From positions 1-50,494 of IMG/VR virus record IMGVR_UViG_3300025853_000135: 50,494 nucleotides of DNA. The stretch is one strand, 5' to 3'. This DNA is from a virus. The position numbers and the translations under genes were made by a program. This document shows positions 6,396-45,887 of the stretch, one piece after another. Position 1 is the first letter of the stretch. Each line of letters opens with the position of its first letter. Under the pieces are notes generated by a model that worked only from the letters and a program-made list of their open reading frames with translations, was not told where the DNA came from and ran no database searches.

Positions 6396-6410
6396 TATAA
6401 TAGTAAATAT
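6396..6410 (-). promoter_or_regulatory. Putative late-promoter element
   Basis: Coding-strand sequence ATATTTACTATTATA, 22 nt before the ATG of the 60-aa gene. It keeps the ATATTTA core but diverges in the TAAAA half. Confidence 0.35.
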
Positions 6411-6420
6411 CTGAAAATGA

Positions 6421-6825
6421 CTAAAAAACTCGTTTTATTTCATTAATAATGAGTTCATTTTCAAATGATGTTATGAACTTATTCTGATATTCGGACCAAT
6501 CAATTTTAAATGAGCTGTGGTCAATATTACCTGTAATATCAGAATTAAGCGTCTCAATCAAACGATTGAGTCCATTTATTGTGTAAAGACAATCACCCTT
6601 TTTATGTACAATTAATGAGTTTGTAAAATCCTTACTTAGATTTAATTTCTCATTATTTGAAACTGAATATCTGAAGGTCATTATATAATGTTCTGGGTTG
6701 TCAACATTAAGGTATTTGAAAATGTGTTTTTGTTTAATATCAAATCTACCCTCCATAAAACCATAAAACCATTCAAGCTTGTCTATTTCAACAAATGTGG
6801 CTATGATTATTTGTTTATCACTCAT
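6421..6825 (-). CDS. Unknown protein (134 aa)
   Basis: 134 aa, ATG start. It overlaps the end of the upstream 202-aa gene by 8 nt, so translation is probably coupled. It is a compact alpha/beta protein: IIIATFVEIDKLEWFYGFM at the N-terminus, IMTFRYSV in the middle and a polar helical C-terminus ending EIKRVF. There is no membrane segment or catalytic motif. It belongs to a two-gene unit with the 202-aa protein, driven by a host-type promoter, so early expression is likely. Confidence 0.75.
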   Translation of the reverse strand: MSDKQIIIATFVEIDKLEWFYGFMEGRFDIKQKHIFKYLNVDNPEHYIMTFRYSVSNNEKLNLSKDFTNSLIVHKKGDCLYTINGLNRLIETLNSDITGNIDHSSFKIDWSEYQNKFITSFENELIINEIKRVF

Positions 6826-7426
6826 CGTTAATTATAGAATATAGATATGGTATATATTTGTAATCATTTTCATACATACTCATATAGTCTTTATATTCTA
6901 TAATTATCTCGTTACCATGCAGAAAGACGTCTGATAAATTTTTTATTTTGGATATTATTTTTTCTCGGTCATCACCAATGAATTCATAGAACATTATATT
7001 GATTCCCAATATGAATCCTTTAGTATAGATATATATCATATCCTTATGATGGAAGGTAATTATTTTATCGTCCTTTTTCTCTATCTTATCAAACATTTTC
7101 TGATGTTTATCTTCGGACATGAGTAATGGGTCAATAAAATAGTAATTTACATCTTTTACAATTTTACCATAACAATGTTGTGAAAACTCATAAGTGTCTA
7201 AGTCATGATAACTTCGGTGTTCATCTAAAGTGAATGTCCAATAAGTATCATCATCAATCTTTCGGTCCAAAATGCTAATCGTATCACCGAATAACTCTTT
7301 GATTTTATCATAACCAACGAATAATACTGGTGAATGTGATTCTTTATCGTATTGTGAATACGATATAACCTCGAAATTATTTTCGGGTTCAATTTTTTCG
7401 TCAGATATTATATAACCTAATGTCAT
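6818..7426 (-). CDS. Unknown protein (202 aa), probably from a leaderless mRNA
   Basis: I start this gene at the ATG at 7426 (MTLGYIISDEK). A longer reading from a TTG at 7441 would place coding sequence inside a perfect promoter -7 box, so I reject it. The protein is rich in Asp, Lys, Tyr and Ile, with segments such as VLFVGYDKIKELFGD, IITFHHKDMIYIYTKG and IIIEYKDYMSMY. No family is recognised and no membrane segment is convincing. The predicted transcription start coincides with the ATG, so the mRNA would have no leader. It forms a unit with the overlapping 134-aa gene. Confidence 0.75.
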   Translation of the reverse strand: MTLGYIISDEKIEPENNFEVISYSQYDKESHSPVLFVGYDKIKELFGDTISILDRKIDDDTYWTFTLDEHRSYHDLDTYEFSQHCYGKIVKDVNYYFIDPLLMSEDKHQKMFDKIEKKDDKIITFHHKDMIYIYTKGFILGINIMFYEFIGDDREKIISKIKNLSDVFLHGNEIIIEYKDYMSMYENDYKYIPYLYSIINDE

Positions 7427-7430
7427 CTTG

Positions 7431-7461
7431 CAAATATACAAAAAAGTTTTTTAGTTATCAA
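7431..7461 (-). promoter_or_regulatory. Bacteroidota-type promoter of the 202-aa gene
   Basis: On the minus strand TTG (7461-7459) is followed by exactly 20 nt and then TATATTTG (7438-7431). The -33 element overlaps the stop codon of the giant hub gene. The -7 box ends only 4 nt before the ATG, which implies a leaderless transcript. Confidence 0.75.
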
Positions 7462-13817: not shown

Positions 13818-13824
13818 ATTGACC

Positions 13825-14156: not shown

Positions 14157-17100
14157 TTAATTTGTTGTAATATTAGCAGTCAACGGTGTTGAAATACCAT
14201 CTAATGTGACTGTTAGTTTGTCTAACGCACCAGGAAAAGCAAACTGTTGATAATCGTAACTCTGATTATCACTAACCATTGACAATTGTAGTTTTTCTAA
14301 AGTATAATTTTCAACCAAATTAACACTACTTAAATTCTGATTAGGATATACCACATTTTGAACCAATCCTGAAGCGTTAACTAGATTGCTATCATCAACA
14401 GTTACGGTTATTTCATAATCTTTTGATAATGCAGTATTGTCAGTGCCATCAATTCTAGAAATTGAGAAATTAAGGGTGTCACCATCCCAGAAAGCTCTAC
14501 TGATTGTCAATCTTTCAATATCTGATTGTTCTGTTGAAGTTTCTACTGGTGGTTGATTAGCATCATTTGCTGAATCAGCTTGAGCTACTTGGTCAGTATC
14601 AGGTACTGTAGTATTATTAGTATTTAAACCTTCGGTATCTGAAGGTTGAGTATCTGTTTTGATTGGTGTTGTTGGATATTCACCTCTATTAGGTATAAAT
14701 TTATCATCTTTCTTTACAATGGTGTCCGATTGTGGACTATAAACTTCAGTATTGGCAAAGAAGTTATATGAAACAGCGTTCTGTAATCTACTTATTGGAC
14801 CACTAAGACTTGAACCACCAATAAATGCAAAGTTAATATCAACAGTACATATCATTGGTTGAACACCAACACCCTCTGGATTTAAATCCCAAACTAATGG
14901 GTCATAAGAGAAATTCAATGAATCTATAACTATCTTGGTATGATAGAAGTCACCAATTCTTAATATACAAACTGGCGATTTACCAAATGCTAAATTATCT
15001 GGTGAACAATTTCTAGTAGCATTTGATACATTATTTAAATCAGTAATTGTTTTACCTTCACTATCCTTAAAAAATCCAGTAGGGCCTTGTCTTGTACATT
15101 GCTGTAAGAATGTTAGTCTACTATTGAAACCTTCTGGTGTTATTGAATGGAATGCTGGGTGAAAATGACCTATTTTTTCACTAATTGACTGGTATACGAA
15201 TTTATCTTCCTGTTCAAGTTTTTTAAAATATGAATATTCAGTATAAAATCTACTTTTAGCCTCACTATTTAAACGGTTTAAGTTAAATTCAATATCTTCT
15301 AATTCTGGTTCAACTTTATTAGGGTTCATTAACTCAGCTAATTCAGAATCCCATTGAAACTCTACAGTTACTTTTGCATTTTCTTTAATATTTTTAGTAC
15401 CTGTAGGTAGCGGAATTCCATTAAAATCAACCAATGGAACACTAACTGTACCACCGTCTTTAACAAAATATCTTCTAATTGTTACTTCATTACCTTGGCT
15501 ATCATAACCTATATCATTACCATTGTATGTTACAATTTCATTTTGAAACCACCTTTCGACAGTTCGACCTCTATTTTCACTCGTAAAATCAGATTCACCT
15601 GGTAAACCATAATGTGTTATAATAACTTTACAAGCTGTACATTGTTCCATTGCCTCGACTAAACCACTGGCAAATGATGCATCGCTTTTACCTTTATTTA
15701 AACCGTAATTAGTATTATCAATTCTAGTAATACCATCATCATCTTCGTAACTACCAAGACCTCCACCAGCACCATTAGGGTTTTCATTGTAATCAATATC
15801 TGTTGGTAAGAATGGTGGTATTGTAATTTCACCATTTTCATAACCATTATCCAATATATCAGCTAAAGTACTTGCATTATAAGGAAAGTAGAATGTAAAA
15901 TCATCAGGTTCTGGTTGTGGTGTATTATTTTCTTCCTTTATTGCTTGATTTAAAGCAATTTCAACCGCTTGTAATTCATTTGCTGATAATCTACTTCTAA
16001 CCCTATCATCAACTTCAAATCCACCAGCAAAGAATGAACTTATTAATTCATCACTTTCACCTTTTAAATTGTTAAGATATGATGGATGGTCAATTATTAT
16101 TTTGAACTGTAAAGTTCCAGTTCTTGTTGTATTATTGTATGTATATATCGGTTCACCTCTACCGATAAAATCAGTTTTCTCCCAATTAACAGACGTATTA
16201 TCAGTAAACGCCATTTCATATGGTGGAAACCACATTATTCTACCCTTTTTACCTGTTATTGGGTCACCATTACCAATCTCTTCTGGTATTAAATTCTGTT
16301 CATAACCAGCCCAAGCTAAATTCTCAATCGAAAACATGTATTTTTTAACTGGTATATCAATTGATGATGTTGTACTATAAGAATACTTGTCATCACTATA
16401 TGGTGCTATTTTGACAAATCCATTATCATCCAACACCGATTTATCTGTATTTCGTCTTTGGTTTGTACCAGCATTTTCCAATAAACCACCATGTTTTTGT
16501 AGTCTATTTACTCTATCATATCTTCTTGAAGAATTAAATGTTCTGAAAAACATTGTTTCTGGGTCAGTTTCCTGATTTAAACCATCATATTTGATTTTAT
16601 TACTACCTCTGGAAGCATAACTTAAACCGTTATTATTAACAACTGCTGAATTGACTTCTGTCTTTTCTTGAACTCTAAAACGGTCATTGACCATTGTTTT
16701 CATTTTTTCATTCTGAATAGAATCAATACCAGCACCAGCATTGAACAATTGTTGAGTTTTACCCAACATTGTTTTCTTATCAAAACGTTCACTGGTTAAT
16801 CCCCAAGTAAATGGTATTGTTTCACTTCCACCATCACCATCATCAACAGTTATTGTCTTATCGGCCAATGATTGAAATCCCGAATTCCTAACCATACCTT
16901 CAAGTTGGTAATTACTTCTTGATATTGGATTATTATCTGAACCAAACTCAATATCAATTACTTGCCCATCAGTTGTTTGAAATGCATATATGTTAGGGTT
17001 TAAACCTTGATTTGGACTTCTTGGGTCTCTTAAGCCTGGTGCATATCCGCTTTTCCTATCGTTAGAACTCAATAAATTTTGACGTAAATTGAAAAATAAT

Positions 17101-18203
17101 GCTTCAACTTGACCCCTTCCAGTATTTTCAATCATACTGTTAGCTCTTTCAATATTACCAATTGGGTTTTCAGAAGAAAATATTGATGATGTTGTTGATA
17201 ACAAACTTACTGGTGTTTGGAAACCTAATATCCTTTCAGCAAAATCCAATACTGCACCTCCACCACCTTTGGCAACCGTAATGCTGTAATTTGGAACTAT
17301 GAAACTATCACCTTGAAGTATACTTATCGGATTGGTATTAACGTTACCTATCGTCTCTTCAATTAAATTAAAAGCCGCATTCTGTCTTATGGCAAAACCT
17401 AATCTATCACCAGCGATTATACCTAATGGTGTTTCTGGTGTATCTGGATTTCTACCACCACTTAATAGACTCGTAACGTCAAATAACGGGTCTGTGCCAC
17501 TAACTGAATAATTTGGTACAATACCACCTAAAAGATTATCTATGACCGTAGAAGCGTTCTTAGAGGCTCCTCCGCCAACGATACCAGCCATTCTTTCAGC
17601 ATAGTTTGGTAAATTCTTATTAGTAACAATTGGTGTAGTTATAATATCAGTCAATATTTGAGATTCAAAATCCAAATATAAATTCTTAGTTGTGATATTC
17701 TTACGATAAGACTTTGAATCATCACTTGAACCTAAATCAGCTAAACTATAATCGTAGTTGATAAAAGTTTCTTCTGTTGGTTGATAGGTTACTAAAGATA
17801 TTGTTGTATTATTCTGTAATAAACCTTGATATTTGTTCTTCAAAGCATTGAATTCCCTATCAAACTCACTGTTTTGGATTATAGGGCTATTTGCTGGTTC
17901 AGGAGTTGCATCATATGGTTGACCATCAGAAACTTCAGTAGCGGTTGTTACAATTGATACTCTTTGGTAATCATTTAATTCACCTTGAAATTTATTATTG
18001 ATAATTAATAAATCCTTATATAAATCACCAATCTCTTCTAAATTATCCGAAGGTCTTACATTTTGAGTACCATTCACAATACTTGCAAATTCCCCAATAT
18101 TGAATAACAAACCTGAAAGACCATTGTCTTCAACAGTATCTGAAGTAATATTTCTTGAAAGTAAACTCTCCCTAATACTTGGTGATAAACTACTTATATC
18201 CAT
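14157..18203 (-). CDS. Large baseplate structural protein (1348 aa), possible OmpA-like insert
   Basis: 1348 aa, ATG start. The N-terminal half is Asn/Gly/Ser-rich with many short beta segments and no catalytic motif. At about 770-870 there is FYFPYNASTLADIL and later KVIITHYGLPGESDFTSEN followed by RGRTVERWF. This is reminiscent of the 'I.G.TD..G....N..LS..RA..V' layout of OmpA-like peptidoglycan-binding domains, though weakly. After it come CILRIGDFYHTKIVIDSLNF and YDPLVWDLNPEGVGVQPMI, which look like a conserved structural core. A Thr/Asp-rich linker and a C-terminal beta-sandwich-like region follow. It lies between the tape measure and gp53-like genes, so a baseplate wedge or hub role is likely. 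A putative late element precedes the start. Confidence 0.75.
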   Translation of the reverse strand: MDISSLSPSIRESLLSRNITSDTVEDNGLSGLLFNIGEFASIVNGTQNVRPSDNLEEIGDLYKDLLIINNKFQGELNDYQRVSIVTTATEVSDGQPYDATPEPANSPIIQNSEFDREFNALKNKYQGLLQNNTTISLVTYQPTEETFINYDYSLADLGSSDDSKSYRKNITTKNLYLDFESQILTDIITTPIVTNKNLPNYAERMAGIVGGGASKNASTVIDNLLGGIVPNYSVSGTDPLFDVTSLLSGGRNPDTPETPLGIIAGDRLGFAIRQNAAFNLIEETIGNVNTNPISILQGDSFIVPNYSITVAKGGGGAVLDFAERILGFQTPVSLLSTTSSIFSSENPIGNIERANSMIENTGRGQVEALFFNLRQNLLSSNDRKSGYAPGLRDPRSPNQGLNPNIYAFQTTDGQVIDIEFGSDNNPISRSNYQLEGMVRNSGFQSLADKTITVDDGDGGSETIPFTWGLTSERFDKKTMLGKTQQLFNAGAGIDSIQNEKMKTMVNDRFRVQEKTEVNSAVVNNNGLSYASRGSNKIKYDGLNQETDPETMFFRTFNSSRRYDRVNRLQKHGGLLENAGTNQRRNTDKSVLDDNGFVKIAPYSDDKYSYSTTSSIDIPVKKYMFSIENLAWAGYEQNLIPEEIGNGDPITGKKGRIMWFPPYEMAFTDNTSVNWEKTDFIGRGEPIYTYNNTTRTGTLQFKIIIDHPSYLNNLKGESDELISSFFAGGFEVDDRVRSRLSANELQAVEIALNQAIKEENNTPQPEPDDFTFYFPYNASTLADILDNGYENGEITIPPFLPTDIDYNENPNGAGGGLGSYEDDDGITRIDNTNYGLNKGKSDASFASGLVEAMEQCTACKVIITHYGLPGESDFTSENRGRTVERWFQNEIVTYNGNDIGYDSQGNEVTIRRYFVKDGGTVSVPLVDFNGIPLPTGTKNIKENAKVTVEFQWDSELAELMNPNKVEPELEDIEFNLNRLNSEAKSRFYTEYSYFKKLEQEDKFVYQSISEKIGHFHPAFHSITPEGFNSRLTFLQQCTRQGPTGFFKDSEGKTITDLNNVSNATRNCSPDNLAFGKSPVCILRIGDFYHTKIVIDSLNFSYDPLVWDLNPEGVGVQPMICTVDINFAFIGGSSLSGPISRLQNAVSYNFFANTEVYSPQSDTIVKKDDKFIPNRGEYPTTPIKTDTQPSDTEGLNTNNTTVPDTDQVAQADSANDANQPPVETSTEQSDIERLTISRAFWDGDTLNFSISRIDGTDNTALSKDYEITVTVDDSNLVNASGLVQNVVYPNQNLSSVNLVENYTLEKLQLSMVSDNQSYDYQQFAFPGALDKLTVTLDGISTPLTANITTN

Positions 18204-18215: not shown

Positions 18216-18230
18216 CTTTACTGTAAATAG
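18216..18230 (-). promoter_or_regulatory. Putative late-promoter element (TTTACAGTAAA subtype)
   Basis: Coding-strand CTATTTACAGTAAAG, 12 nt before the ATG of the 1348-aa baseplate gene. It has the palindromic core TTTACAGTAAA, shared with the element at 22708-22722 at the same 12-nt distance from its ATG. Confidence 0.55.
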
Positions 18231-22695: not shown

Positions 22696-22707
22696 TTTTA
22701 ACAAATC

Positions 22708-22722
22708 ATTTACTGTAAATAT
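22708..22722 (-). promoter_or_regulatory. Putative late-promoter element (TTTACAGTAAA subtype)
   Basis: Coding-strand ATATTTACAGTAAAT, 12 nt before the ATG of the 577-aa gene. It contains a perfect inverted repeat ATTTAC-T-GTAAAT on the plus strand and matches the element before the 1348-aa gene. Confidence 0.55.
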
Positions 22723-24380: not shown

Positions 24381-24869
24381 TTAGAACAAGAGTATAGCTC
24401 GGTCAAATCTAAGTGTTGCACTAACGTCAGCTATTCCGTCATCGTCCATACTTAAATCTCCGAAGTTAACGGTTGTTAACATTGTACCTTGAAGTTCCCA
24501 TTTTTCAACAACAACACCAGTCGGGTCAAGCATTTCCAAATAAACATCTCTTTTATAACCAGCAGCATAACCTTGTCTACCAGTAATTGATTCAGAACCC
24601 AATCTAACCCATTCCATAATTGCTTGAGTTGTTGAAGGTCCAATAGCATCCCTAAAAGTCACATCGATAGCTTCCCAAAGAAATCTACCAAGAACATAGG
24701 TTGAAGTGTTCAAAAACGGAATTTCAACATCCGATTGTGTAATTGTAGGTCTTGATGCTGAGGCCAACCACCACTCTTGAATACCCAAATCTGAAGGGAA
24801 TCTCAAGAGCCACCTATTTTTTCTTTTTGGCTCATACGGTAGGGGCATTTTCATTAATAAGTCTGCCAT
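24381..24869 (-). CDS. 19: Tail tube protein, T4 gp19-like
   Basis: 162 aa, the same length as T4 gp19 (163 aa). The pattern of the gp19 family is clear: PYEPKRKNRWLLRFP near the N-terminus, then WWLASASRPTITQSDVEIPF, TYVLGRFLWEAIDVTFRD, AIMEWVRLG, and a C-terminal ATLRFDRAILLF strand. Subunits stack as hexameric rings inside the sheath to form the DNA channel. The gene has its own late-type element upstream and a strong terminator downstream, fitting a monocistronic high-output gene. In T4 the tube gene directly follows the sheath gene; here a homing endonuclease on the other strand separates them. Confidence 0.93.
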   Translation of the reverse strand: MADLLMKMPLPYEPKRKNRWLLRFPSDLGIQEWWLASASRPTITQSDVEIPFLNTSTYVLGRFLWEAIDVTFRDAIGPSTTQAIMEWVRLGSESITGRQGYAAGYKRDVYLEMLDPTGVVVEKWELQGTMLTTVNFGDLSMDDDGIADVSATLRFDRAILLF

Positions 24870-24874: not shown

Positions 24875-24904
24875 TTGTTTTTTAAATATTTATTATTATC
24901 TTTG
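24875..24904 (+). promoter_or_regulatory. Bacteroidota-type promoter of the homing endonuclease
   Basis: TTG (24875-24877) is followed by 19 nt and TATCTTTG (24897-24904), matching TTG-N19/21-TAnnTTTG. The predicted start near 24910 gives a leader of about 20 nt. Its last four bases overlap the divergent late-type element of the tail-tube gene. Confidence 0.7.
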
Positions 24905-24915
24905 TATATAAATAG
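24901..24915 (-). promoter_or_regulatory. Putative late-promoter element of the tail tube gene
   Basis: Coding-strand CTATTTATATACAAA, 31 nt before the tail-tube ATG. It shares bases 24901-24904 with the plus-strand host-type promoter, so the two could not be occupied together. On the plus strand it contains TATAAATA, the T4 late consensus, 18 nt before the endonuclease ATG. Confidence 0.45.
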
Positions 24916-26613: not shown

Positions 26614-29514
26614 TTATACATTCTCGAAAGAAGCTCCAGTATTAAGGATGTTGAATTCGATTGAAATATATTCAAGAGAACGAGTAGGTTTCAAGAATAT
26701 CTTTCCATTCAATTCATTTCTATCGATTGATTCTGGTGTATCAACAAGAACCACACGGAAATCTGTAAGACCTCTTTCACTTCTAATGTTATCCAATATT
26801 GGGTTAACAAGTGTCAAGAATTGGTTTCTAACAACATCGTCATTTTGTTCGAACAACAATCTGATAGATACGGCAGAAATAAGTTTTCTTGCTTGAAGAA
26901 GTAGACGTCTAACGTTAACTCTGTCAAGTGCAGATTCTCTAACTTGCATTGTTTTGTTACCCCATATCTTGATACCTTCTGATGCGAAAGTTGTCACTGG
27001 GTTAACTCTTGCAGCATACAATGTATCTCTTTCATCCAATGTAAGTTTCTTTCTTGCTTTGATACCGTCAACGTTACCTCTTTGGATACCAGCTACAGCA
27101 AACCATGGGAATGCGATATTATCGGTCAATGCTGTGTTTCTAACAACATCTCTCGTTGGTGGTAACCAGATATAAACGTTATTTTCAGTATCATTTACTT
27201 GAATCCATGGGAAGTAAGTAGATGTATAGCTACTGTCATAAAAACCATCTAATGTATCGGCAACTTCTTCAGCGGTAAGAACATCACCAGCCGCATCAAC
27301 GTCAGGTATTGTCATAATGTACCATGAGTCAGCTCTATCTTCTTCAATCATTTCAATTGAAGCTTCGATAAGGTTGCTGTTTTCAAATCCATCGATACCT
27401 GGTGTTGCAAACACATTAATGTTAACAGCTTCAGGGTTTCTGAATGTCCAGATACCTTCCAAATATGCATAGTAATCTGAAGTTATACCTAAATCACCAT
27501 TAGACAATACTCGGTTTTCAAAAGGTTTATCTAAACCTAAACCTAAACTACCTTTGACACCATTGATTGCGTAAGTATCGGTATTGGTTCTTCTATCTCT
27601 GTAGATATCCCATCCATCGAAACCACCGTAAGGTGCCAATGTGAATTTTCTTGCATAGATTTTTTCGTAATCAGTACCTTGAATACCTAAGTCAGTTCTG
27701 AATTCAGCATTACCAGTTTCAAATAGGAATACTGGTGAATATGTATCACCTGAGCTATTTATCACGATTTCAACACCATCAATTGTTGCACCAGTAGCTG
27801 CAATATCCATGTGGAATCCTTTGGTCATACCTGTCCACATATCAATATCACTACTATCTGGAACACCTTTATAGTCAAAGAAGTCAGCGTCAATACCTAC
27901 GGTGTTTGAAAGACCTAAGTAATATCTACGTTTATTTTCAAACACACCATAAGTTTGTTTATAAAGAATATTAGGTGTAAGGACATCAGTATTGTTTGTC
28001 TGAGTGTAATCTCTCACTGGGAATCCAACGAATCCAGCTGGGAATGCCTCACTAGTATCGTTCGTATCATCAAGCTCAATTAAAATATAGCTTGATTTTG
28101 ATGCATACTCACCATCCAATGTACCTATTCTCTTAGCGATATAGTTATTTGATTGTGGGTTCATTGTCAAACGAGAGAATTTCTCCAATACAACTTTATT
28201 TGCATCAGTATCGTAGAAAGCTCTAACCTCGATATCAAATTCTCTTTCGTCTGGTTTAATATTAGTTATTGATAATTTAATTTCTTCATTTGCTGAATTA
28301 CCATCAGAAATTGTCCACATTCTGAACAATCTAAGTAAGTTTGTACCACGAAGTTCCGATACAACATATGGTGTAACAGCTGGTTTATATTCTTGAAGAT
28401 AATCATCAAATGGTAACCCTTCTGTTGTCGTATAATCAACCAAACTTATAATGTTGATACCTCTTACTTTATCGTTATCAACCAAGTTCTCAAACATATT
28501 CTGATAAAGTTCTTCAACGAATAATGCTGTTCTACCATCTTTTTCACCTCTACCAAGAACTTTACCAATGTAGTTTCGTTTAGATGTATCAAAAGAACAT
28601 TCATAACTGAAATCACCTAAAGTCAATGCAGTACCTGTAAGTGCAAAATCACCTTTAGGGTCTAATGCTGCGGTAATTGGAGATGGTCCAAACACAACAT
28701 GTGTTGCATCAGAACTAGTGTAACCAGTAACCTCAAATAAGATATCTTCGTTAGCATCATATTGACCTCTTGACCTTAATAATGCTACCAATTTGTTTTC
28801 AACATCAGTAAATCCAGTACCTGAATAATGAACAGTTACACCAGAAGTATATCCAGTATAAGCTGTTGCGCCAGTTGGAATAGGTGATGGGTTAGTATTA
28901 GTAACGGTTAAGTTAAATGATACACCACTGAAAACATTATTTGCTTGAGTATTTAAGTATGTTGTACTAACATTAATAGTATCACCAGTATCGGCTGATG
29001 CTAAACTAGATAAATTTGATACCAATTGACCTTCATCAATAAGAGCTTGAACCCTTGGGTCAGCACTTGAATAGGTCAATGTACCAGCGGAACTGACAAC
29101 ATATGTGATAAGTGAGTTACCGCTGAAACCAAAATATGTAAAGGTTCCAGTTATACCTGTTGTTGATGTGTCCAATGCGGCATCAAGAACGATACCCCAA
29201 GCTGGTCCAGCGTCATAACCAGAAAAACCTAAGATTCTTGATACGAATAATTGGTTTGATTGTGTAAGATATGATTTTGCAATGTATGGTAATTCATACT
29301 GTGGATAACCAGTATCTTTGAATTTTGTTGGATTCAACGCACCGAAAAATGTTGTGAATTCATCGTAATTTGAGATGAAAACTGGTTGAAAAGCTGGTCC
29401 CTTTGTTGTTTCACCAACAAGACCCAAAGTTGTTACACCAACTTGACGGGTTACAAATGAAAGGTCTTTTTCTGAGGTATAAACACCTGGACTAACGAAT
29501 ACTCTATCTGCCAT
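26614..29514 (-). CDS. 18: Tail sheath protein, T4 gp18-like
   Basis: 966 aa, longer than T4 gp18 (659 aa). The N-terminus reads RVFVSPGVYTSEKDLSFV, then GVTTLGLVGETTKGPAFQPV and SNYDEFTTFFG, as in contractile sheath proteins. The conserved C-terminal domain is present: IKIWGNKTMQ, VNVRRLLLQARKLI, RLLFEQNDDVVRNQF, NPILDNIRSERGL and LEYISIEFNI. The extra length is in the middle (about 130-300: Thr/Ser/Gly-rich beta sequence), suggesting an additional surface domain facing outward. The protein forms the contractile outer tube. The late-type element ATATTTATAATAAAG lies 34 nt upstream. It ends at a terminator shared with the endonuclease gene. Confidence 0.93.
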   Translation of the reverse strand: MADRVFVSPGVYTSEKDLSFVTRQVGVTTLGLVGETTKGPAFQPVFISNYDEFTTFFGALNPTKFKDTGYPQYELPYIAKSYLTQSNQLFVSRILGFSGYDAGPAWGIVLDAALDTSTTGITGTFTYFGFSGNSLITYVVSSAGTLTYSSADPRVQALIDEGQLVSNLSSLASADTGDTINVSTTYLNTQANNVFSGVSFNLTVTNTNPSPIPTGATAYTGYTSGVTVHYSGTGFTDVENKLVALLRSRGQYDANEDILFEVTGYTSSDATHVVFGPSPITAALDPKGDFALTGTALTLGDFSYECSFDTSKRNYIGKVLGRGEKDGRTALFVEELYQNMFENLVDNDKVRGINIISLVDYTTTEGLPFDDYLQEYKPAVTPYVVSELRGTNLLRLFRMWTISDGNSANEEIKLSITNIKPDEREFDIEVRAFYDTDANKVVLEKFSRLTMNPQSNNYIAKRIGTLDGEYASKSSYILIELDDTNDTSEAFPAGFVGFPVRDYTQTNNTDVLTPNILYKQTYGVFENKRRYYLGLSNTVGIDADFFDYKGVPDSSDIDMWTGMTKGFHMDIAATGATIDGVEIVINSSGDTYSPVFLFETGNAEFRTDLGIQGTDYEKIYARKFTLAPYGGFDGWDIYRDRRTNTDTYAINGVKGSLGLGLDKPFENRVLSNGDLGITSDYYAYLEGIWTFRNPEAVNINVFATPGIDGFENSNLIEASIEMIEEDRADSWYIMTIPDVDAAGDVLTAEEVADTLDGFYDSSYTSTYFPWIQVNDTENNVYIWLPPTRDVVRNTALTDNIAFPWFAVAGIQRGNVDGIKARKKLTLDERDTLYAARVNPVTTFASEGIKIWGNKTMQVRESALDRVNVRRLLLQARKLISAVSIRLLFEQNDDVVRNQFLTLVNPILDNIRSERGLTDFRVVLVDTPESIDRNELNGKIFLKPTRSLEYISIEFNILNTGASFENV

Positions 29515-29548: not shown

Positions 29549-29563
29549 CTTTATTATAAATAT
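29549..29563 (-). promoter_or_regulatory. Putative late-promoter element of the sheath gene
   Basis: Coding-strand ATATTTATAATAAAG, 34 nt before the sheath ATG. Together with those at 32746 and 45845 it gives a nearly invariant ATATTTATAATAAA. Confidence 0.6.
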
Positions 29564-32745: not shown

Positions 32746-32760
32746 TTTTATTATAAATAT
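32746..32760 (-). promoter_or_regulatory. Putative late-promoter element of the neck operon
   Basis: Coding-strand ATATTTATAATAAAA, 5 nt before the gp14-like ATG and identical over 15 bases to the element at 45845-45859. If it is a -10-type box, the leader would be almost absent. Confidence 0.65.
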
Positions 32761-34912: not shown

Positions 34913-34927
34913 ATATTTATATTAAAA
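34913..34927 (+). promoter_or_regulatory. Putative late-promoter element of the gp13-like gene
   Basis: ATATTTATATTAAAA, 10 nt before the ATG of the neck gene. The plus-strand element at 45873 is at the same distance from its ATG. It would let gp13 be expressed late although early-type genes precede it on the same strand. Confidence 0.65.
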
Positions 34928-34937: not shown

Positions 34938-36089
34938 ATGGCAGTATCAAATTCAGAAAAGGAAAAATTGTTTGAAAGATTCAGACACACGATGGGAGCA
35001 CCCATACGTAACATAGAACTTACAGACGAACAATTATGCACCTTATTAGAAATTGCAATTGAGGATTACTCTCAATATGTACAAGAATGGTTGATTGAAC
35101 ATCAATGGCAATCATTACTGGGCCAGAATGTTGATACGATTGATATGTCATTCGCATTAAGTGTAAGGTCTTTGGATTTTATGACATCTTATACTTATGC
35201 TTATTCAAAACAAGTGGGTTTACAAGCCAGAGGTCCATGGGAGTTAAAAAAAGATTACGTTGAATTAGAAGCTGGTAAACAAGTTTATCAGATACCAGCT
35301 GGTAGAGAAATAAATGAGGTGTTATGGATAACACCACCAACGACTGATATGGCTTTATTTGCCAACTACGCTGGTATTGATTATGGTTTTGGTGGTGGTT
35401 ATGGTCAATTGGGTTCAACAGGTGGTGGATTTAATGCGGCTGGTGCTGGTGGTGCTGGTGGTTATTATATCGCTCCAGCATATGATATTCTATTGACAGC
35501 TTCAGATTTCAATCTTAAAAATAGGATACTAAGAAGTGAATTGGTGTATAAGGTAACAGCTGGACCTAATGGCACCAGATTATTACATTTGATGTCAACA
35601 CCAGGTTCAAAACTATCTTTTGGTCATGGTATCGGTGGTGCTACCAGTAGCAGTATCAATATGACTGGATGTCAAGTTTGGTATCATTATTACGATACAA
35701 CACCAGAAAACGTTGACCAATGTAGATTGGAAAATCCAGATATTATTTTAATGCCAAATGATGTTCCTTTGGCTAAATTGGAATATGAAAGATTCAATGA
35801 ACCAACAAAAACATTGATACGTCAATTATTCTTCGCTGAAGCTAAAAGAGCTTTGGGTAGAACAAGAGGTAAATTCGGTGGTATTGTTGGGCCACCAGAA
35901 GCTGAACGTACATTGGACTACGAAACTTTAATATCAGAAGGTAATGAAGAAAGAAAGGCCATATTAGAAAGACTGGATGAGAGATTACTTAGATTATCAT
36001 CAACTAGTCAGCTTGAAAGAGGTGCTAAAGAAGCCGAATTCCTTAACCAATCTTTAAAATATAGACCTTTAGGTTTCTGGGTGTATTAA
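34938..36089 (+). CDS. 13: Neck protein, T4 gp13-like
   Basis: 383 aa. The N-terminal domain matches the gp13 family: KLFERFRHTMGAPIRNIELT, then DEQLCTLLEIAIEDYSQYVQEW. YVELEAGKQVYQIPAGREI and EVLWITPP follow. A Gly-rich segment at about 150-180 (GFGGGYGQLGSTGGGF) is a flexible insertion. The C-terminal part (MPNDVPLAKLEYERFNEPTK; LFFAEAKRALGRTRGKFGG; ERTLDYETLISEGNEER) is the conserved helical core. T4 gp13 (309 aa) joins with gp14 to seal the filled head before tail attachment. Its stop codon overlaps that of the converging DNA polymerase gene in TTAA. Confidence 0.85.
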   Translation: MAVSNSEKEKLFERFRHTMGAPIRNIELTDEQLCTLLEIAIEDYSQYVQEWLIEHQWQSLLGQNVDTIDMSFALSVRSLDFMTSYTYAYSKQVGLQARGPWELKKDYVELEAGKQVYQIPAGREINEVLWITPPTTDMALFANYAGIDYGFGGGYGQLGSTGGGFNAAGAGGAGGYYIAPAYDILLTASDFNLKNRILRSELVYKVTAGPNGTRLLHLMSTPGSKLSFGHGIGGATSSSINMTGCQVWYHYYDTTPENVDQCRLENPDIILMPNDVPLAKLEYERFNEPTKTLIRQLFFAEAKRALGRTRGKFGGIVGPPEAERTLDYETLISEGNEERKAILERLDERLLRLSSTSQLERGAKEAEFLNQSLKYRPLGFWVY

Positions 36090-39000
36090 AGGATTTCTGA
36101 TTCTGAAATATTCATCATTTCATTTTTAACCAATGACATAATATCATCAGAATCTTTATTACCCATGATTTCATCAATTTCTTCTTCATCAAATGATTCA
36201 ATCATTTCATTAAGAACCATATCGGTAGCATGTTCTTCGTCAAACTCATCATCAGTAGAATTTGAAATGGTGGTACCACTTAATACTTCAATCCACATAT
36301 CTGTTATTTCACCTATTTCCATGTTAAGGAAATTGTCATAACCGACTTCAACCGCTTTATCAATCCAATATGGACAGTTATCAATTGTTAATTCAGATTT
36401 TATTGTCGTATCCTTTATTTTATGAACAAACATTGTCCATTTATCATATAGAGCACTAGGTGTTTCAATGAATGGAAATAATTTACGATAGAATTCATTT
36501 CTTAACTTGGCCAAGTCTTCATATTTGAATAGTACATCAAGGCCGATTAATGAATCACCACACTCTTTTGAAGTGAATGATAGTGTATCTGGATTAACAT
36601 CAGCGAATACTAAGATAGTATCAGGTATGTTACCTTCAGATTTAATAAGGTTTAAATCATTAACCTCTAATCGTTTAGCAATTTCAATTATTTTATCTCG
36701 TTCATCAGATAATCTTTGTTGCTTTTCTTCTTCAATACGTTCTTTATAATCATTTTTAACAGTTTCCCACTCTTCTTTGGGCATATTATTTGGAACCTCA
36801 TTTGCCGCTAACCAGAATTTAATTTCCTTATCCTCAATCTGCATTAGTTCTTCATAAGAATCTTGGTCTTCTGGTTTAAGTGGATATCCAGCCACCAATT
36901 TACACTGACTTTCTGTGAATAAACTTTTTTCAGTCAATACATATTTTTTGGTTTTCTTATCTTTTACCATATCGATAAGAATGTTATCTCTTATATCTTC
37001 ATTGAAACAAACTAACAATGGTGTGATACGCTTATTAAGTGCATTGAGATATCTTGGTGCGTTATATTCATCCGTTGTAAGTTCTGGGTTTGTTTCTATT
37101 TGGTCTTGAGGTATAAGTTTACAATTAAGTGTAACTGTTCTTTGACCAGTTTCCTTATCAGTTGTAACTGTAACATCACCTTTTGATTTGGATTCACCAG
37201 TATTAACATAATAGATAACCTCACCCAGATTTGGTTTTAAATCATGTTCCAAAACCAATTCCATATGGGCTTTTCTTGCTTTAAAGTTACCAGCTTTTGT
37301 TTTTGTTTTACACTCTCTAAGATATTCATCGACACTTTCTTTAACCTTAGCTTTTGATGCTATCTTAACCAATGGTATCTTATAATTGAAAATCATATCA
37401 ACATATTCATTGTAATGTTCTATGAAATCATGACCTTTACCATCCAAAAGTAATCTTATCCCCTTATCAAGAAATTCTTCAATATATGTTGGCATTTTTT
37501 TAGACTTGATTGAGTTACCAACCAACTTAACTTTACCATCGATAAGGTTAGCATAGTTCTTTCTTTTGAAGTTGATTGTTGAAGTACAAACATCATCAAC
37601 ATCCAGACCCATCCACTTATCCATATAGGTTTCATTAAAGAAAGAAACACAAGCATCCAAACCGATTAATTCAACGCCTGCTTTATCCTTTGTTTTCCAA
37701 TGGTTACCCTTTGCCACATATTTTATCTCATCGATATTCTTTGGTAATGCAAAGTTAACACCATCGGTGTCCATTACTAATGGTCTAAGATTATATTTTT
37801 CCTTAAACACCTTAACCAATAATCTTAAGTTCTGTCTTGACATACATGTGATTTTTTCAGCACACATACTATCACCCCATGGGAATATGTATGGTGCACC
37901 GAATGAACCGTAGAATGAGTTAGCTAGAATCTTAAGTGGTAATTGTTTCTTATCATAATCAGATGCTAATTTTGAAGCTTTTTCAATCTCTTCTTCACTT
38001 GCATTAGATTCTTTTAATTGTTTTGATTTATATTTGTATTCACCAGTAAGTGCCTTATAGGTATCCCTTGTATCAACAACATACTTAAGTAGACCTTTCA
38101 TTACACCGCTGATATCCAAGTCTGGGAATATATCATATGTCAATGTTGTTTTAGGGTAAAGTGCGGCATAGTCAAGTTTTGCAACATCCTCAGCAAAACC
38201 AGTTTCTATTAACCTAGATAGACCACCAGTAAAATCCCTTTTTGGTTCATAATCTGGAACACCAAGACCATTCTCATACGACCAAGCTAATAATATTAAT
38301 GTCCATTGACCAGCGGTTCCCATTGTGGAACTTCTCATATATGATGTCGGCAATAACTTAGCCAATAGGAAAGATGCTTGGTTATAGATTGCATCAACCT
38401 TCTCAGTTTCCCAAAGGTCATCCAAAAGATATCGTTGAACAATATAATCACCTTTAACCATTTTTAATGGTTCTGGAAGTTCATTAACATATTGCGAACC
38501 TTCCAACAAACCCCAAGAACCATCCTCATCGTTGAACCAATAATCACGAGTATCAGCCCATGTTGAATGTATCTTATCACCGTCAACATAAACACGGTTC
38601 TTTTTATTTATTTTTGAAAACTTGGTTATGTATTTAAGACCCCAACTCTTAATATCTGAGTTAATTGCCTGTGCCCTTCTTACAGCGTGTGAAGTGTCCA
38701 AGATATTTGTACCCCATAAGGTCGTTTGTGTATATCGTTCAGTCTCATTACCCAACTTCAAAGTAGAATTTGGTATTCTTTTTAAATTTGTTTTACCATC
38801 AAAACCAAATAATAATTTATCGAATTGAAGACCAAGACGTTGACATCTGCGTTCAAAAAAATCCCAGTCAAAGTTTTCTGAGTTATAACCAGCGATGATA
38901 TCTGGTTTTATTCGCATTACTTCGTTTGCGAATGTCACGATATTCAATCTTTCAGAATCTCTACGTTCTTGTTGTGTTTCACCGATGGTTTCCAAAACCA

Positions 39001-39589
39001 TTTCAAAACCCTTATTATCTCTAAGACCTATTTGAAATATTGCATCAGTTTCTGGGTTAAGGCCTTCAGTTTCAAGGTCAAATTGGAATCTATGCAAATC
39101 ATCATAATCATCCATGCCCTTGAACATTCTTTTACCAGTCTGAATTAAGAATTGTTCAGCTGGCTGAATTCTCATTATTAATCTTGAGTTCTCTTTATTA
39201 AACGGGTCAAAACCACCTCGTTTAAAGAATGTTATTAAATCATTCGGTGTTTTGCTACATGTCACAAGATATTTGAAACCTCTTGACATTCTGGTGGGTA
39301 TATAACCCTCATCATTTTGAATTCGCAACACTTCGATTTTAATACCGTATTTGAGCATTGCTTCACGTAACTTACTTCTATTACCATTGTATAGGGTCTT
39401 ACCAACAACCTCTTTCATCCAAAGAAATGGTTTGTAAGTGTGTACCTCAACACGCTTACCACTTTCTGGGTCATTGATAACTAAGTAAGCTTTATTCTCA
39501 TTGTTTGGCGCTTCAATTGCGACAATATACTTTTGTTCATCTTTACCTGCGATGAACTGTTCAATTACATTAAAATTGATTTCAGACAT
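36086..39589 (-). CDS. 43: Family B DNA polymerase, T4 gp43-like
   Basis: 1167 aa from the ATG at 39589; a TTG 12 codons upstream is rejected because it lies in the leader between promoter hairpin and ATG. It is longer than T4 gp43 (898 aa). The exonuclease motifs are FDLETEG (D171, E173), NSENFDWDFF (D241/D243) and YLLDD (387-391). The polymerase motifs are LDYAALYPK (motif A, D473), KILANSFYG (motif B, 553-561) and VMDTDGVNF (motif C, D607, D609), with Gly where DTDS is usual. An insert rich in Lys/Glu (about 515-550) separates A and B. The last 70 residues form an acidic tail (DDEFDEEHATDM; FDEEEIDEIMG). It has its own host-type promoter and a leader hairpin. Confidence 0.94.
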   Translation of the reverse strand: MSEINFNVIEQFIAGKDEQKYIVAIEAPNNENKAYLVINDPESGKRVEVHTYKPFLWMKEVVGKTLYNGNRSKLREAMLKYGIKIEVLRIQNDEGYIPTRMSRGFKYLVTCSKTPNDLITFFKRGGFDPFNKENSRLIMRIQPAEQFLIQTGKRMFKGMDDYDDLHRFQFDLETEGLNPETDAIFQIGLRDNKGFEMVLETIGETQQERRDSERLNIVTFANEVMRIKPDIIAGYNSENFDWDFFERRCQRLGLQFDKLLFGFDGKTNLKRIPNSTLKLGNETERYTQTTLWGTNILDTSHAVRRAQAINSDIKSWGLKYITKFSKINKKNRVYVDGDKIHSTWADTRDYWFNDEDGSWGLLEGSQYVNELPEPLKMVKGDYIVQRYLLDDLWETEKVDAIYNQASFLLAKLLPTSYMRSSTMGTAGQWTLILLAWSYENGLGVPDYEPKRDFTGGLSRLIETGFAEDVAKLDYAALYPKTTLTYDIFPDLDISGVMKGLLKYVVDTRDTYKALTGEYKYKSKQLKESNASEEEIEKASKLASDYDKKQLPLKILANSFYGSFGAPYIFPWGDSMCAEKITCMSRQNLRLLVKVFKEKYNLRPLVMDTDGVNFALPKNIDEIKYVAKGNHWKTKDKAGVELIGLDACVSFFNETYMDKWMGLDVDDVCTSTINFKRKNYANLIDGKVKLVGNSIKSKKMPTYIEEFLDKGIRLLLDGKGHDFIEHYNEYVDMIFNYKIPLVKIASKAKVKESVDEYLRECKTKTKAGNFKARKAHMELVLEHDLKPNLGEVIYYVNTGESKSKGDVTVTTDKETGQRTVTLNCKLIPQDQIETNPELTTDEYNAPRYLNALNKRITPLLVCFNEDIRDNILIDMVKDKKTKKYVLTEKSLFTESQCKLVAGYPLKPEDQDSYEELMQIEDKEIKFWLAANEVPNNMPKEEWETVKNDYKERIEEEKQQRLSDERDKIIEIAKRLEVNDLNLIKSEGNIPDTILVFADVNPDTLSFTSKECGDSLIGLDVLFKYEDLAKLRNEFYRKLFPFIETPSALYDKWTMFVHKIKDTTIKSELTIDNCPYWIDKAVEVGYDNFLNMEIGEITDMWIEVLSGTTISNSTDDEFDEEHATDMVLNEMIESFDEEEIDEIMGNKDSDDIMSLVKNEMMNISESEIL

Positions 39590-39626
39590 TAAATAATTTT
39601 TTTTAATATTATAGTTTGCAAACAAG

Positions 39627-39644: not shown

Positions 39645-39648
39645 GTCG

Positions 39649-40063: not shown

Positions 40064-40064
40064 A

Positions 40065-42419: not shown

Positions 42420-42425
42420 GTTAAA

Positions 42426-42590
42426 TTAATTTTTTTCACTGTAACCGCTTATTATAAAACCAAAAAAGAACTCTTCAGTAATTTTATTATCATACAGGTC
42501 GTAATATATTATTTTTTGTTTAGTTAATTCACCTTCTGTCGGGTGAATAACAGTATATTCTTCTATTTCATATGTACCTAAATAACCCAT
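42426..42590 (-). CDS. Small unknown protein (54 aa) between two fibre genes
   Basis: 54 codons, ATG at 42590, starting 1 nt after the stop of the 511-aa fibre gene and ending 6 nt before the next fibre ATG. It reads MGYLGTYEIEEYTVIHPTEG, then QKIIYYDLYDNKITEEFFFG and ends GYSEKN. The beta-rich, aromatic composition suggests a small folded domain. The tight fit between genes and continued sense codon use support it as a real gene. Function is unknown; a fibre-assembly role is only suggested by position. Confidence 0.65.
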   Translation of the reverse strand: MGYLGTYEIEEYTVIHPTEGELTKQKIIYYDLYDNKITEEFFFGFIISGYSEKN

Positions 42591-42591
42591 T

Positions 42592-44127
42592 TTAATATTC
42601 TATTTTTAAATTAAATTGTTGTCTTACTGAAGTTGGATTTGTGGCATAAACTGGTGTTTGCCACTCAATTTCTAATTTATCACCCGAATTAACTGCCAAT
42701 GGCGAAGCTAAAGTATAATTATTTAAACTAGAGCTAGAATCAAGCGTTTCACCTGAAGTTATTAAAGCGCTAGTAGCTTGTGTTACATTGTTAATTTGAT
42801 AAGTATTATTTTCACTACTACCTATTGTACCCGTAATTATTCTACCAATACTAACTTCAGTAACCTGACCAGTATATTGAGAAATAATCCTTCTATCATC
42901 CCCTGATGAGGTAACAGCACCTAATTGCGATAAATTACCGATATAATAACTATTATTATCAGCTGGACTGGTAGAATCGTGGGATAGATAGTATATTGAA
43001 GAGTTAGTACCTGAACCACCTCCACCACCAGAACCAATTACAATTACTTTTACACCAGTTAAATTGCTAGTTAACGTTACATCCACAGAGTTTAACTGAT
43101 AGTTATCAACAAGACCATAAATTAATTGATTTTTATATATAATTTGAACATGGATGTCTGTTGAATTAAAATTATGATTTATTGTTTGTGAAACACCAGA
43201 AACATAATTATTGATTTGTGTATATATGGTATTACCAGTAAAACCTGATAATATTGGTGATAAATCTACAGAATAAGCGTTAGGGGTATCAGTTCTATCA
43301 AATTCAATGGTATTCCCATTTAATCCCGCACTAATCGTATAATAATCAGTACCAGTACCACCAGATATACCTGTTACAGTAAAGGTACCACCAGTATTAT
43401 TAGTAAAAGTAATTGTTGATGCTGATGAATTATAAGTTCCACCAGTAACAAAAACATCTGTACCAGTACCACCAGTTGTAAATCCTGTTACGGTAAAGGT
43501 CCCACCAGTATTATTGGTAAATGTGGCTATACCATTTGATTGATTATAAGTTCCACCAGTAACAAAGGTATCGGTACCAGTACCACTAGGAAATGAAACA
43601 AATGTTGTTGTACCAGAATTATTAAACGTACCACCACTGTTTATTAGTGAACCATTTATAATAACCACATTGCCTAAGTTATTAAGCTGACCAGCCAATG
43701 TTAAATCACCATATACAAGATATTGTTGGTTTTGAGGTACTGTTATTGTTAAACCACTGGGTATTATGTTATTAACATATTGTGAACCACCACCACTAGT
43801 GACTCCTGTTACGGTGAATGTACCACCAGTATTATTTGTAAAGGTTATTGTTGATGCTGATGAACTATAAGTTCCACCAGTAACAAAGACATCAGTACCA
43901 GTACCACCCGTAAACGCTGATAGGTCGATATTAATCGTGTCACCATTAATTCTATTAAGAACCAAGTCACTACCATTAACCGAACCATTTTGGATATTTA
44001 AACCTTTTAAAAATATAAAGTTATTATCAACCTCATTCCATGATAGAACTGAACCTTTAACAATATCTGATAAAGGAAAGATATACGGACTTGGCGTACT
44101 CCTTAAAATTAATCTATTACTTGGCAT
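42592..44127 (-). CDS. Tail fibre protein with TGGTYxxSxxTxTFTNNTGG repeats
   Basis: 511 aa. Three copies of a repeat containing GTGTDVFVTGGTY, (I/A)TFTNNTGGTFTVTG occur at about residues 76-110, 182-216 and 219-254. They are near-identical at DNA level (43371-43472, 43473-43588, 43798-43909). The N-terminal 60 residues (LPLSDIVKGSVLSW-like) probably attach to the virion. The C-terminal half carries GSGGGGGSGTN as a flexible linker, then a beta domain ending RQQFNLKIEY, a plausible receptor-binding head. No enzymatic motif is visible. Repeats of this type are common in fibres of Bacteroidota phages. Confidence 0.78.
   Translation of the reverse strand: MPSNRLILRSTPSPYIFPLSDIVKGSVLSWNEVDNNFIFLKGLNIQNGSVNGSDLVLNRINGDTINIDLSAFTGGTGTDVFVTGGTYSSSASTITFTNNTGGTFTVTGVTSGGGSQYVNNIIPSGLTITVPQNQQYLVYGDLTLAGQLNNLGNVVIINGSLINSGGTFNNSGTTTFVSFPSGTGTDTFVTGGTYNQSNGIATFTNNTGGTFTVTGFTTGGTGTDVFVTGGTYNSSASTITFTNNTGGTFTVTGISGGTGTDYYTISAGLNGNTIEFDRTDTPNAYSVDLSPILSGFTGNTIYTQINNYVSGVSQTINHNFNSTDIHVQIIYKNQLIYGLVDNYQLNSVDVTLTSNLTGVKVIVIGSGGGGGSGTNSSIYYLSHDSTSPADNNSYYIGNLSQLGAVTSSGDDRRIISQYTGQVTEVSIGRIITGTIGSSENNTYQINNVTQATSALITSGETLDSSSSLNNYTLASPLAVNSGDKLEIEWQTPVYATNPTSVRQQFNLKIEY
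43371..43909. repeat. Three approx. 105-nt coding repeats in a fibre gene
   Basis: Related units at 43371-43472, 43473-43588 and 43798-43909 each contain versions of GGTACCACCAGTATTATT and AGTTCCACCAGTAACAAA. The first two are directly adjacent; the third is separated by unrelated fibre sequence. Confidence 0.8.
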
Positions 44128-44137
44128 TTAAATTTTC

Positions 44138-44152
44138 TTTTTTAATAAATAT
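44138..44152 (-). promoter_or_regulatory. Putative late-promoter element of the 511-aa fibre gene
   Basis: Coding-strand ATATTTATTAAAAAA, 10 nt before the ATG. Confidence 0.5.
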
Positions 44153-44154
44153 GG

Positions 44155-45837
44155 TCATAAACCGTATCTTGCTTTTTCTTGCTTATAATTATTTTCAATA
44201 TCCACCCAACTCAAGTTACATGCGTAAAATTTAAACTGAGATATTGAACCTATGAATGTTCCAGCAAAGTTCTTTTCTATGTTAAGACCTAAATCTTCAG
44301 GGTCTTGACCATCAAATGTCATACTTTCCAATAAACCTTGTGAACCACCACCTAAACTTATATTATATGGTACAGCGACCTGTTTTTGGTAATTGGTGTC
44401 CAATCTTCTTGGTATTATTTCCAAAAAGTCATCAACCCAAAATTTTAATTTACCATTAACATAAATGGCCAATCTACCTAATCTTCTACCTTTACATAAC
44501 AATTCCTCATCTGTCATTCTCTCATAAGCATAGAATCTTATTGCGATATTTTTCCACACATCATTGGTCACCATACCACTTGCTGAATAACCTTCAGTAA
44601 CTGTAACGCCAGATATATAAGTGTCACCAGAACATGCACCAGTAACCGATAATAAACGATAACCGATGCTACCGTCATCTTTAACTCTGAAACCGATTGC
44701 GTTATCAATAATATCCAAATTGTAATCCAATGACAATAAAGGTCCTGTTCTACCAGAATAATCGCATACAGTACTACAATCGGAATCATCACATGAACAC
44801 CCAGTACTATTACATTTATTACAGTATATTAAGAATGGATTACGATTATCTTCCAATAACTGTGTTGTCGCAGTTATCGTTATGCTATCACCAGTAAATT
44901 CAGGTGCTGTTTTACCTTTTGGATAACTGATACCATAATGTGTTGTGGTAGCTTGACCATTATGGTATATCATAAACTGATTTTTAATTTCAATCTCTTT
45001 TATTTCTGGTGGGTCTAATGACACACCGCTTGATAATACTATTTGATTTTCTTTAGGTACTGTACAGAATGTTGTTACCGTACCTGTGCAACCTATTGGT
45101 GTGGTACAAGCGCTTGTACAACCAGTATTAAGACCCTCAAATACATCCCAGAATTTATTTTCAGCTCTGGTTCCCATATAGAAGAAGAAACCTTTGTTAT
45201 CTGGATATAGGTCATTTAATGTCGTTGCCGTTGTACCACTACATGTTGAATCAGATTTTTTTAACCAGAATTCAGCGACCCAACCTTTATTTACTCTATT
45301 TGGTAATACTTGATAGTCAAACCCATCCAATTTATAGTAACCTTGATAAAATCCACCACAAAAATCCATATAGTCACCTGTTGTTCCAGTGCTTGTGACA
45401 AAATTCATTGGATATTCGTATTGTTCGGTCATACCAGTAACCCTTGTCATCATAAATCTGGTATCACCAGATGGTATATATAATGTTGAGGCTGTTAAAG
45501 CTGATAATAATGCTTGATTTGTCGTATCAGCTGATAATTTTTCAAAGGTAATCAGACCATTATCAATACCTGTTATACCTATTGTATTTGCAGTAACACC
45601 AGTATTTGTTGCGCCAGTCCATGTCTGTGTTGAATATATTGTATCGGCTGAAGTTGTTCCAGTTCCGAATATGGCTGGATTATTAAAGTCAAAATCAACG
45701 ACAAAACATGTACCTGAAGTTGTTCCAGTAAATGGTGCATAATTAGGCATTGTGTTTTTCAAATAAAAATCCCAATAGTATTTATTTGATAAAACTAATT
45801 TAAGATTATTCGGTGTATAGTTAATTATATTGGTCAC
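44155..45837 (-). CDS. Cysteine-rich virion adhesin with LamG/concanavalin-like domain
   Basis: 560 aa with a GTG start at 45837; no nearby ATG fits and the start is 7 nt from a late-type element. The protein has the layout of a LamG/concanavalin-like jelly roll: GWVAEFWLKK, KGFFFYMGTRAENKFWDVFEG, NQFMIYHNG, then VWKNIAIRFYAYE, RLAIYVNGKLKFWVDDF and FAGTFIGSISQFKFYACNLSW. Cys-rich stretches occur in the middle (NTGCTSACTTPIGCTGTVTT; CNKCNSTGCSCDDSDCSTVC), unusual for a cytoplasmic product and perhaps metal-binding. It lies in the fibre cluster, so surface binding to host polysaccharide is a reasonable inference. Confidence 0.72.
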   Translation of the reverse strand: MTNIINYTPNNLKLVLSNKYYWDFYLKNTMPNYAPFTGTTSGTCFVVDFDFNNPAIFGTGTTSADTIYSTQTWTGATNTGVTANTIGITGIDNGLITFEKLSADTTNQALLSALTASTLYIPSGDTRFMMTRVTGMTEQYEYPMNFVTSTGTTGDYMDFCGGFYQGYYKLDGFDYQVLPNRVNKGWVAEFWLKKSDSTCSGTTATTLNDLYPDNKGFFFYMGTRAENKFWDVFEGLNTGCTSACTTPIGCTGTVTTFCTVPKENQIVLSSGVSLDPPEIKEIEIKNQFMIYHNGQATTTHYGISYPKGKTAPEFTGDSITITATTQLLEDNRNPFLIYCNKCNSTGCSCDDSDCSTVCDYSGRTGPLLSLDYNLDIIDNAIGFRVKDDGSIGYRLLSVTGACSGDTYISGVTVTEGYSASGMVTNDVWKNIAIRFYAYERMTDEELLCKGRRLGRLAIYVNGKLKFWVDDFLEIIPRRLDTNYQKQVAVPYNISLGGGSQGLLESMTFDGQDPEDLGLNIEKNFAGTFIGSISQFKFYACNLSWVDIENNYKQEKARYGL

Positions 45838-45844
45838 AATTATA

Positions 45845-45859
45845 TTTTATTATAAATAT
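45845..45859 (-). promoter_or_regulatory. Putative late-promoter element of the LamG-like gene
   Basis: Coding-strand ATATTTATAATAAAA, 7 nt before the GTG start; identical to the 32746-32760 element. It is divergent from and 13 nt away from the plus-strand element at 45873. Confidence 0.65.
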
Positions 45860-45872
45860 TAGGTTTTTGGTC

Positions 45873-45887
45873 ATATTTATATAAAAA
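45873..45887 (+). promoter_or_regulatory. Putative late-promoter element of the plus-strand virion operon
   Basis: ATATTTATATAAAAA, 10 nt before the ATG at 45898. It matches the gp13 element in 12 of 15 bases or better and has the same distance to the start codon. Confidence 0.6.

Follow-up and report, generated by a model that had tools for sequence, protein, structure and literature searches.

The analyzed stretch of DNA (50,494 nt, hereafter the window) is a 50-kb fragment from a T4-superfamily phage. Its gene content includes a gp18-type tail sheath, a tail tube and a neck-like protein, and the non-virion genes encode a DnaB-like helicase, a UvsX-like protein, an SSB and a DNA polymerase. 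The tail sheath gene (26614..29514, minus strand) belongs to the T4 gp18 superfamily (PHROG 23, E=1.1e-56), and the tail tube gene (24381..24869, minus strand) matches PHROG 4542 (E=1.9e-23). The SSB gene (4433..5335, minus strand) and the DNA polymerase gene (36086..39625, minus strand) have host-type promoters, TTGACA...TACATTTG and TATATTTG, respectively, and lack the element described below; they were used as negative controls. Because host-type promoters (TTG, TAnnTTTG) precede these two genes, the sequence suggests that the host of this phage belongs to Bacteroidota. Relatives of the window, up to 362 kb in length, were retrieved from IMG/VR via the sheath. These relatives are metagenome contigs, mostly partial, with gene starts taken from a simple ORF caller; the closest ones, G004 and G005, are both partial. 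Among the relatives, Flavobacterium phage immuto (160 kb) is available as an isolate.

An element with the core TATTTAT lies just 5' of many structural genes and reads on the sense strand of the downstream gene. All eight 15-mers listed in the preliminary description are present letter for letter, six on the minus and two on the plus strand, each directed toward its downstream gene. The minus-strand copies include CTATTTACAGTAAAG at 18216..18230, 12 nt before the 1348-aa gene 14157-18203; ATATTTACAGTAAAT at 22708..22722, 3 nt before the gene 20962-22704 (12 nt with the ATG at 22695) and kept in G004, G005, and G006; ATATTTATAATAAAG at 29549..29563, 34 nt before the tail sheath gene; ATATTTATAATAAAA at 32746..32760, 5 nt before the gene 32219-32740; and ATATTTATTAAAAAA at 44138..44152, 10 nt before the gene 42592-44127 and present in G005. 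On the plus strand, ATATTTATATTAAAA at 34913..34927 precedes by 10 nt the neck or head-tail adaptor-like gene 34938-36089, which has a weak match to the head-tail adaptor family PHROG 211 (E=4.8e-8). The other two copies lie back to back in the short intergenic region 45838-45897, one for each gene of a divergent pair: ATATTTATAATAAAA (45845..45859, minus strand) is 7 nt upstream of the gene 44155-45837, and ATATTTATATAAAAA (45873..45887, plus strand) is 10 nt upstream of the gene 45898-46452. The GTG start of the former gene is supported by its G001 and G007 homologues, which align from residue 3; the plus-strand element is kept with its gene in G005 and G001. This divergent pair of elements is seen again in G001 near 178 kb. 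The start-codon distance of 5-12 nt proposed earlier applies to most gaps but not to the sheath.

Three weaker copies, at 6396, 24901, and 1595, are present as well, all on the minus strand. The first, ATATTTACTATTATAAC (6396..6414), precedes the small gene 6191-6373 and was included in the shuffle test. The copy at 24901, CTATTTATATACAAAG, contains the box CTATTTAT (24908..24915) in sense orientation for the tail tube gene, 38 nt from its start codon, and this box is identical in G004 and G005. The copy at 1595, GTATTTATAAAAGC, contains the box GTATTTAT (1602..1609) and precedes the DnaB-like helicase gene 176-1576, which is non-structural.

Enrichment, placement, and conservation of the element

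Sense TATTTA[TC] occurs at most 45 nt upstream of 10 of the 40 window genes, compared with 2.4+-1.4 expected, and none of 1000 dinucleotide shuffles reached 10. The longer pattern [ACT]TATTTA[TC]N3-5AAA was found six times versus 0.4 expected, with 0/1000 shuffles reaching six. The reverse orientation, [AG]TAAATA, is not enriched in the window (6 vs 3.9, a value reached in 191/1000 shuffles). Since the sense element beats shuffles of its own upstream sequences and the reverse orientation does not, the window by itself supports the observation; the relatives are decisive. Upstream counts of TATTTATA versus dinucleotide shuffles are 68 vs 9.3 in G001, 24 vs 3.2 in immuto, and 13 vs 1.6 in G003, with 6 vs 0.9 both in the window and in phage Mel-JY01 (PP395634). 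The longer pattern TATTTAYARTAAA has 33 copies in G001, and its reversed control has none.

The placement of the element is equally specific to one strand. In G001 (362 kb), 34 of the 156 sense copies of TATTTATA sit 10-14 nt before start codons, and the reverse profile is flat, as is the profile of sense TATAAATA, the T4 late box, around the same start codons. The last observation bears on the possibility that the element is a T4 late box working on the opposite strand in divergent promoters. Indeed, the other strand reads TATAAATA, and in the divergent intergenic regions at 32.7 and 45.8 kb both strands could be in use. Still, this explanation is hardly credible: most such promoters would point antisense into another gene, and near starts in the relatives sense TATAAATA is flat or weakly enriched, whereas sense TATTTATA is strongly enriched.

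Downstream of the core, A is found at position +11 from the TATTTAT start in 79-91% of cases in the window, G001, G003-G005, G007, and immuto, and in 62% in G002. Upstream, 54 of the 85 element genes of G001 have at least four T's in a 5-nt frame 18-14 nt before TATTTAT, compared with a baseline of about 8-15 of 85 at most of the offsets farther away. This T-tract is likewise enriched in G002-G005 and G007, and none was found before the element in immuto. Its interpretation as mere terminator U-runs was rejected, as a terminator-like stem is near only 4 of the 54 G001 tracts.

The element is conserved upstream of orthologous genes. TATTTAY within 60 nt upstream was observed for 14/15 orthologues of the sheath, 7/8 of the 173-aa gene 32219-32740, 5/7 of the 1348-aa gene, 5/7 of the neck-like gene, and 8/15 of the tube, these counts not being independent events, as some relatives (e.g., G004 and G005) are mutually close. 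Most tube orthologues have the element at varying distance upstream, and a wider frame raises their count. By the same measure, the element precedes none of the SSB (0/8) and DNA polymerase (0/5) orthologues and only 2/8 orthologues of helicase 32829. The DnaB-like helicase is the exception among non-structural genes, with the element in 6/8 orthologues, so the element class is not purely structural. Moreover, several window structural genes inside tight operons lack the element. The association with structural genes proposed initially is therefore seen for many of them, with exceptions on both sides.

In immuto, the genes with the element encode the terminase, portal, PhoH, virion structural protein, sheath, tube, hub, tape measure, and tail spike. 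Among immuto genes whose upstream gap is 20 nt or longer, it is found at 16/29 genes of the virion-gene regions versus 10/67 elsewhere (Fisher p=9e-5, only indicative because the region boundaries were set by hand from the annotation after the hits had been seen). If these genes are indeed late, the element offers a direct guide to where the late genes lie in a large set of uncharacterized Bacteroidota phages, most of whose proteins have no annotation. HNH homing endonucleases make up many of the genes with the element in G001, 7/63 of which match one HNH family.

Element-bearing genes and host-type promoters

The element is nearly missing upstream of closely packed co-directional genes (3/127 in immuto, 7/193 in G001, and 0/15 in the window), compared with 20/51, 29/108, and 5/10, respectively, for the gap and divergent gene classes. 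This distribution points to a role in transcription and not to a ribosome site. A signal for translation initiation or in the 5' leader, such as an AU-rich ribosome site with Kozak-like A's, would account for the short and almost constant spacing from the start codon and for the A-rich tail, the more so as Bacteroidota have no Shine-Dalgarno sites and favor upstream A's (PMC6847099). We consider it very unlikely, because the closely packed downstream genes need translation signals equally, the element of the sheath gene is some 25-50 nt upstream of the start both in the window and in many relatives, and the conserved T-tract is far beyond any ribosome footprint.

The element-bearing genes also form a class distinct from the genes with host-type promoters. 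Two-component EM on G001 yielded 84 genes with the late element and 75 genes with a host-type promoter, in agreement with the initial claim that the two are largely separate, as also seen for SSB and DNA polymerase. Here, EM was seeded with both motifs; a prior run seeded from enriched 6-mers had fused them into one ATATTTaTA motif. The late-element motif in G001 is cTTTTt, 13 nt, ATATTTAT, about 4 nt, and AAA. Its ATATTTAT box is similar to the host -7 box TATATTTG and shares its register, and both are found before genes of AT-rich genomes, so that a degenerate host sigma promoter (TAnnTTTG at -7) or AT-rich chance could be suspected. Either origin is highly improbable. The -7 box of the Bacteroidota housekeeping promoter (-33 TTTG / -7 TAnnTTTG) is partly similar to the element in sequence and register, but the element does not have this sigmaA-type combination: the class separated by EM has no -33 TTG, and its last -7 position is A instead of G, so the two are distinct classes within one genome. 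Chance is excluded by the shuffles, the reversed-pattern control, and the conservation in orthologues.

Several other signals were observed in the relatives. The host-type promoters of G002 (TTTGGcca...TATCTTTGCA, about 55 genes) are unusually uniform across 40 nt. In immuto, a strong separate promoter-like class, TATATTTAGGTATCAATAATTAAAA, precedes small unknown genes at about 60-75 kb and is probably early. A search for a third promoter class in G001 gave only tRNA signals; the 0-36 kb region of this contig has many tRNA-like TTCGA signals between genes.

Comparison with the T4 late promoter

Taken as a sequence class, the element probably represents the -10 box of a late-class promoter in a large clade of the T4 superfamily, with a gp55-like protein as its reader. 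The promoter would have the consensus [A/C/G]TATTTATA, followed by about 3-4 A/T bases and then AAA. The preliminary description noted that the T4 late box is the reverse complement of the element and concluded that this is not the T4 promoter in its normal orientation. However, TATTTATA and TATAAATA are identical at 6/8 bases, the central AA being replaced by TT, and because only these two bases differ, a T4-type late box in the normal place and orientation is the more fitting interpretation of the element.

T4 late promoters have an A/T-rich stretch directly downstream of the box and no -35 element (PMC2988020). In the studied phages, an A/T-rich stretch also directly follows the box, which stands in sense orientation upstream of virion genes; a -35-like element is absent from immuto, and G001 has the fixed T-tract. 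Thus, with the T4 late promoter, read by gp55-RNAP with gp33 and gp45, the element shares the 8-bp A/T box, strand orientation, A/T-rich downstream stretch, virion genes, and a small sigma domain-2 protein as the likely reader. It differs in the consensus box, which is TATTTATA and not TATAAATA, with its central TT, in the short and almost constant distance to the start codon, in the additional upstream T-tract in one lineage, and in having no detectable gp45 clamp.

The same counts were made for other phages. In the T4 late region, TATAAATA is strongly enriched (12 vs 0.7), with a smaller signal for TATTTATA (5 vs 0.4). The late promoters of T4-like cyanophages and pelagiphages belong to the same superfamily and are gp55-dependent by annotation, but feature ATAAATA (12 vs 2.2 in pelagiphage Mosig and 6 vs 1.3 in cyanophage MbCM1) and have no TATTTAT at all. 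Neither ATAAATA nor TATTTAT gave a signal in the stretches read of Caulobacter phage Cr30 and the huge phage LR756508. In the records examined, the box change follows the gp55-like clade, as Mel-JY01, which has a distant gp55-like protein, shows TATTTATA. LR756508 is an exception, with a weak gp55-like match but without such a box in the stretch read. Among open-licence papers containing the terms for a TATTTATA phage promoter, none concerns such a promoter, judging by title and abstract. The TATTTAT-core box appears to be an altered version of the known T4 late promoter type, with AA changed to TT, and this suggests that the T4 late box can switch specificity while holding its place.

As in T4, the host core RNA polymerase would probably be directed to the box by a small sigma domain-2 protein made by the phage. 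At T4-type late promoters, transcription begins late in infection, about one helical turn beyond the box. Assuming the T4 geometry, with the box at about -13 to -6, the A's conserved 11-13 nt from the box start would lie at the transcription start site, and most mRNA leaders would be only about 5-12 nt long. In the lineage with extra sigma70 factors, the T-tract (cTTTTt) 18-14 nt before the box would be an addition to this promoter, missing from immuto.

Candidate reader of the box

No sigma gene was found within the window, and the phage-encoded late sigma-like factor proposed in the preliminary description has a plausible candidate in the relatives. It is a diverged sigma region-2 protein of about 232-256 aa, common to G001, G002, G003, immuto, and Mel-JY01, with 254 relatives among the matching IMG/VR stretches; its gene occupies 78174-78872 in immuto and was not seen in the window or in the partial contigs G004 and G005. 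In seven contigs, this gp55-like protein matches Sigma70_r2 with E from 5e-7 to 1e-5, a better match than that of T4 gp55 itself (E=0.004). Its sigma70 similarity is confined to domain 2, as in the gp55 family, and the G001 protein has no other Pfam sigma region. Alignment of the gp55-like and gp55 profiles by hhalign covers 101 collinear columns over domain 2 (E=4.6e-4, with a probability of only 33%). The curated gp55 profile phrog_234 has no significant match to it (E=0.5 for the immuto protein) and found nothing in a genome search of G001 and G003; the search for T4 gp55 in the relatives via PHROG models gave no convincing match. The predicted structure is a low-confidence model (pLDDT 67), and a PDB fold search with it returned nothing significant. 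Thus, the protein resembles T4 gp55 in small size, similarity to sigma70 domain 2 only, and a collinear profile match, and differs in being about 240 aa long, with additional sequence at the C-terminus, in having no PHROG late-sigma match, and in its very weak sequence similarity.

A competing reader is a conventional phage sigma70-family factor with regions 2 to 4, for which the T-tract would be a -35-like contact. Such factors are available: G001-G004 encode two or three sigma70 region-2 proteins, some of them under host-type (early) promoters, and the T-tract of G001 is at a fixed distance from the box and mostly away from stems. Nevertheless, this assignment is unlikely, since immuto and Mel-JY01, both complete records, carry the element and the gp55-like protein without a recognizable sigma70 region-2 factor, and immuto has no T-tract. 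For the same reason, the gp55-like protein is the best candidate reader. A phage multi-subunit RNA polymerase was rejected, as no RNAP beta' gene was matched in nine records.

Other components of the T4 late system were searched for around this candidate. In T4, gp45 is required for activated late transcription (PMC2988020). The gp45 clamp (PF02916) was not found in nine relatives by a profile that detected the T4 control, such profile absence not being a proof; it prompts one to ask how late transcription and replication are coupled in these phages. The small ORF adjoining the gp55-like gene was considered as gp33 and rejected, having no similarity to T4 gp33. A gp55-gp47-gp46 cluster was suspected from the neighbors in PhiW-14 and Moby, but the immuto and G001 neighbors match no gp46 or gp47 family, and hence synteny was not used as an argument. 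A bolder reading combines these features into an undescribed phage sigma cascade, where late transcription dispenses with a T4-type sliding-clamp activator, the re-specified late box is the target of a diverged gp55-like sigma, helped in one lineage by the upstream T-tract, and two further phage sigma70 factors act beside it. This is possible, if rather doubtful.

Most phages of the clade with the element apparently infect Bacteroidota, and the isolation of immuto with its host, Flavobacterium sp. LMO8, makes the proposed promoter and its reader directly testable. Host-type TAnnTTTG is not enriched in Mel-JY01 within the 50 kb read. This phage was deposited as a Microcystis phage and has both the gp55-like protein and the element in common with the Flavobacterium phage clade.
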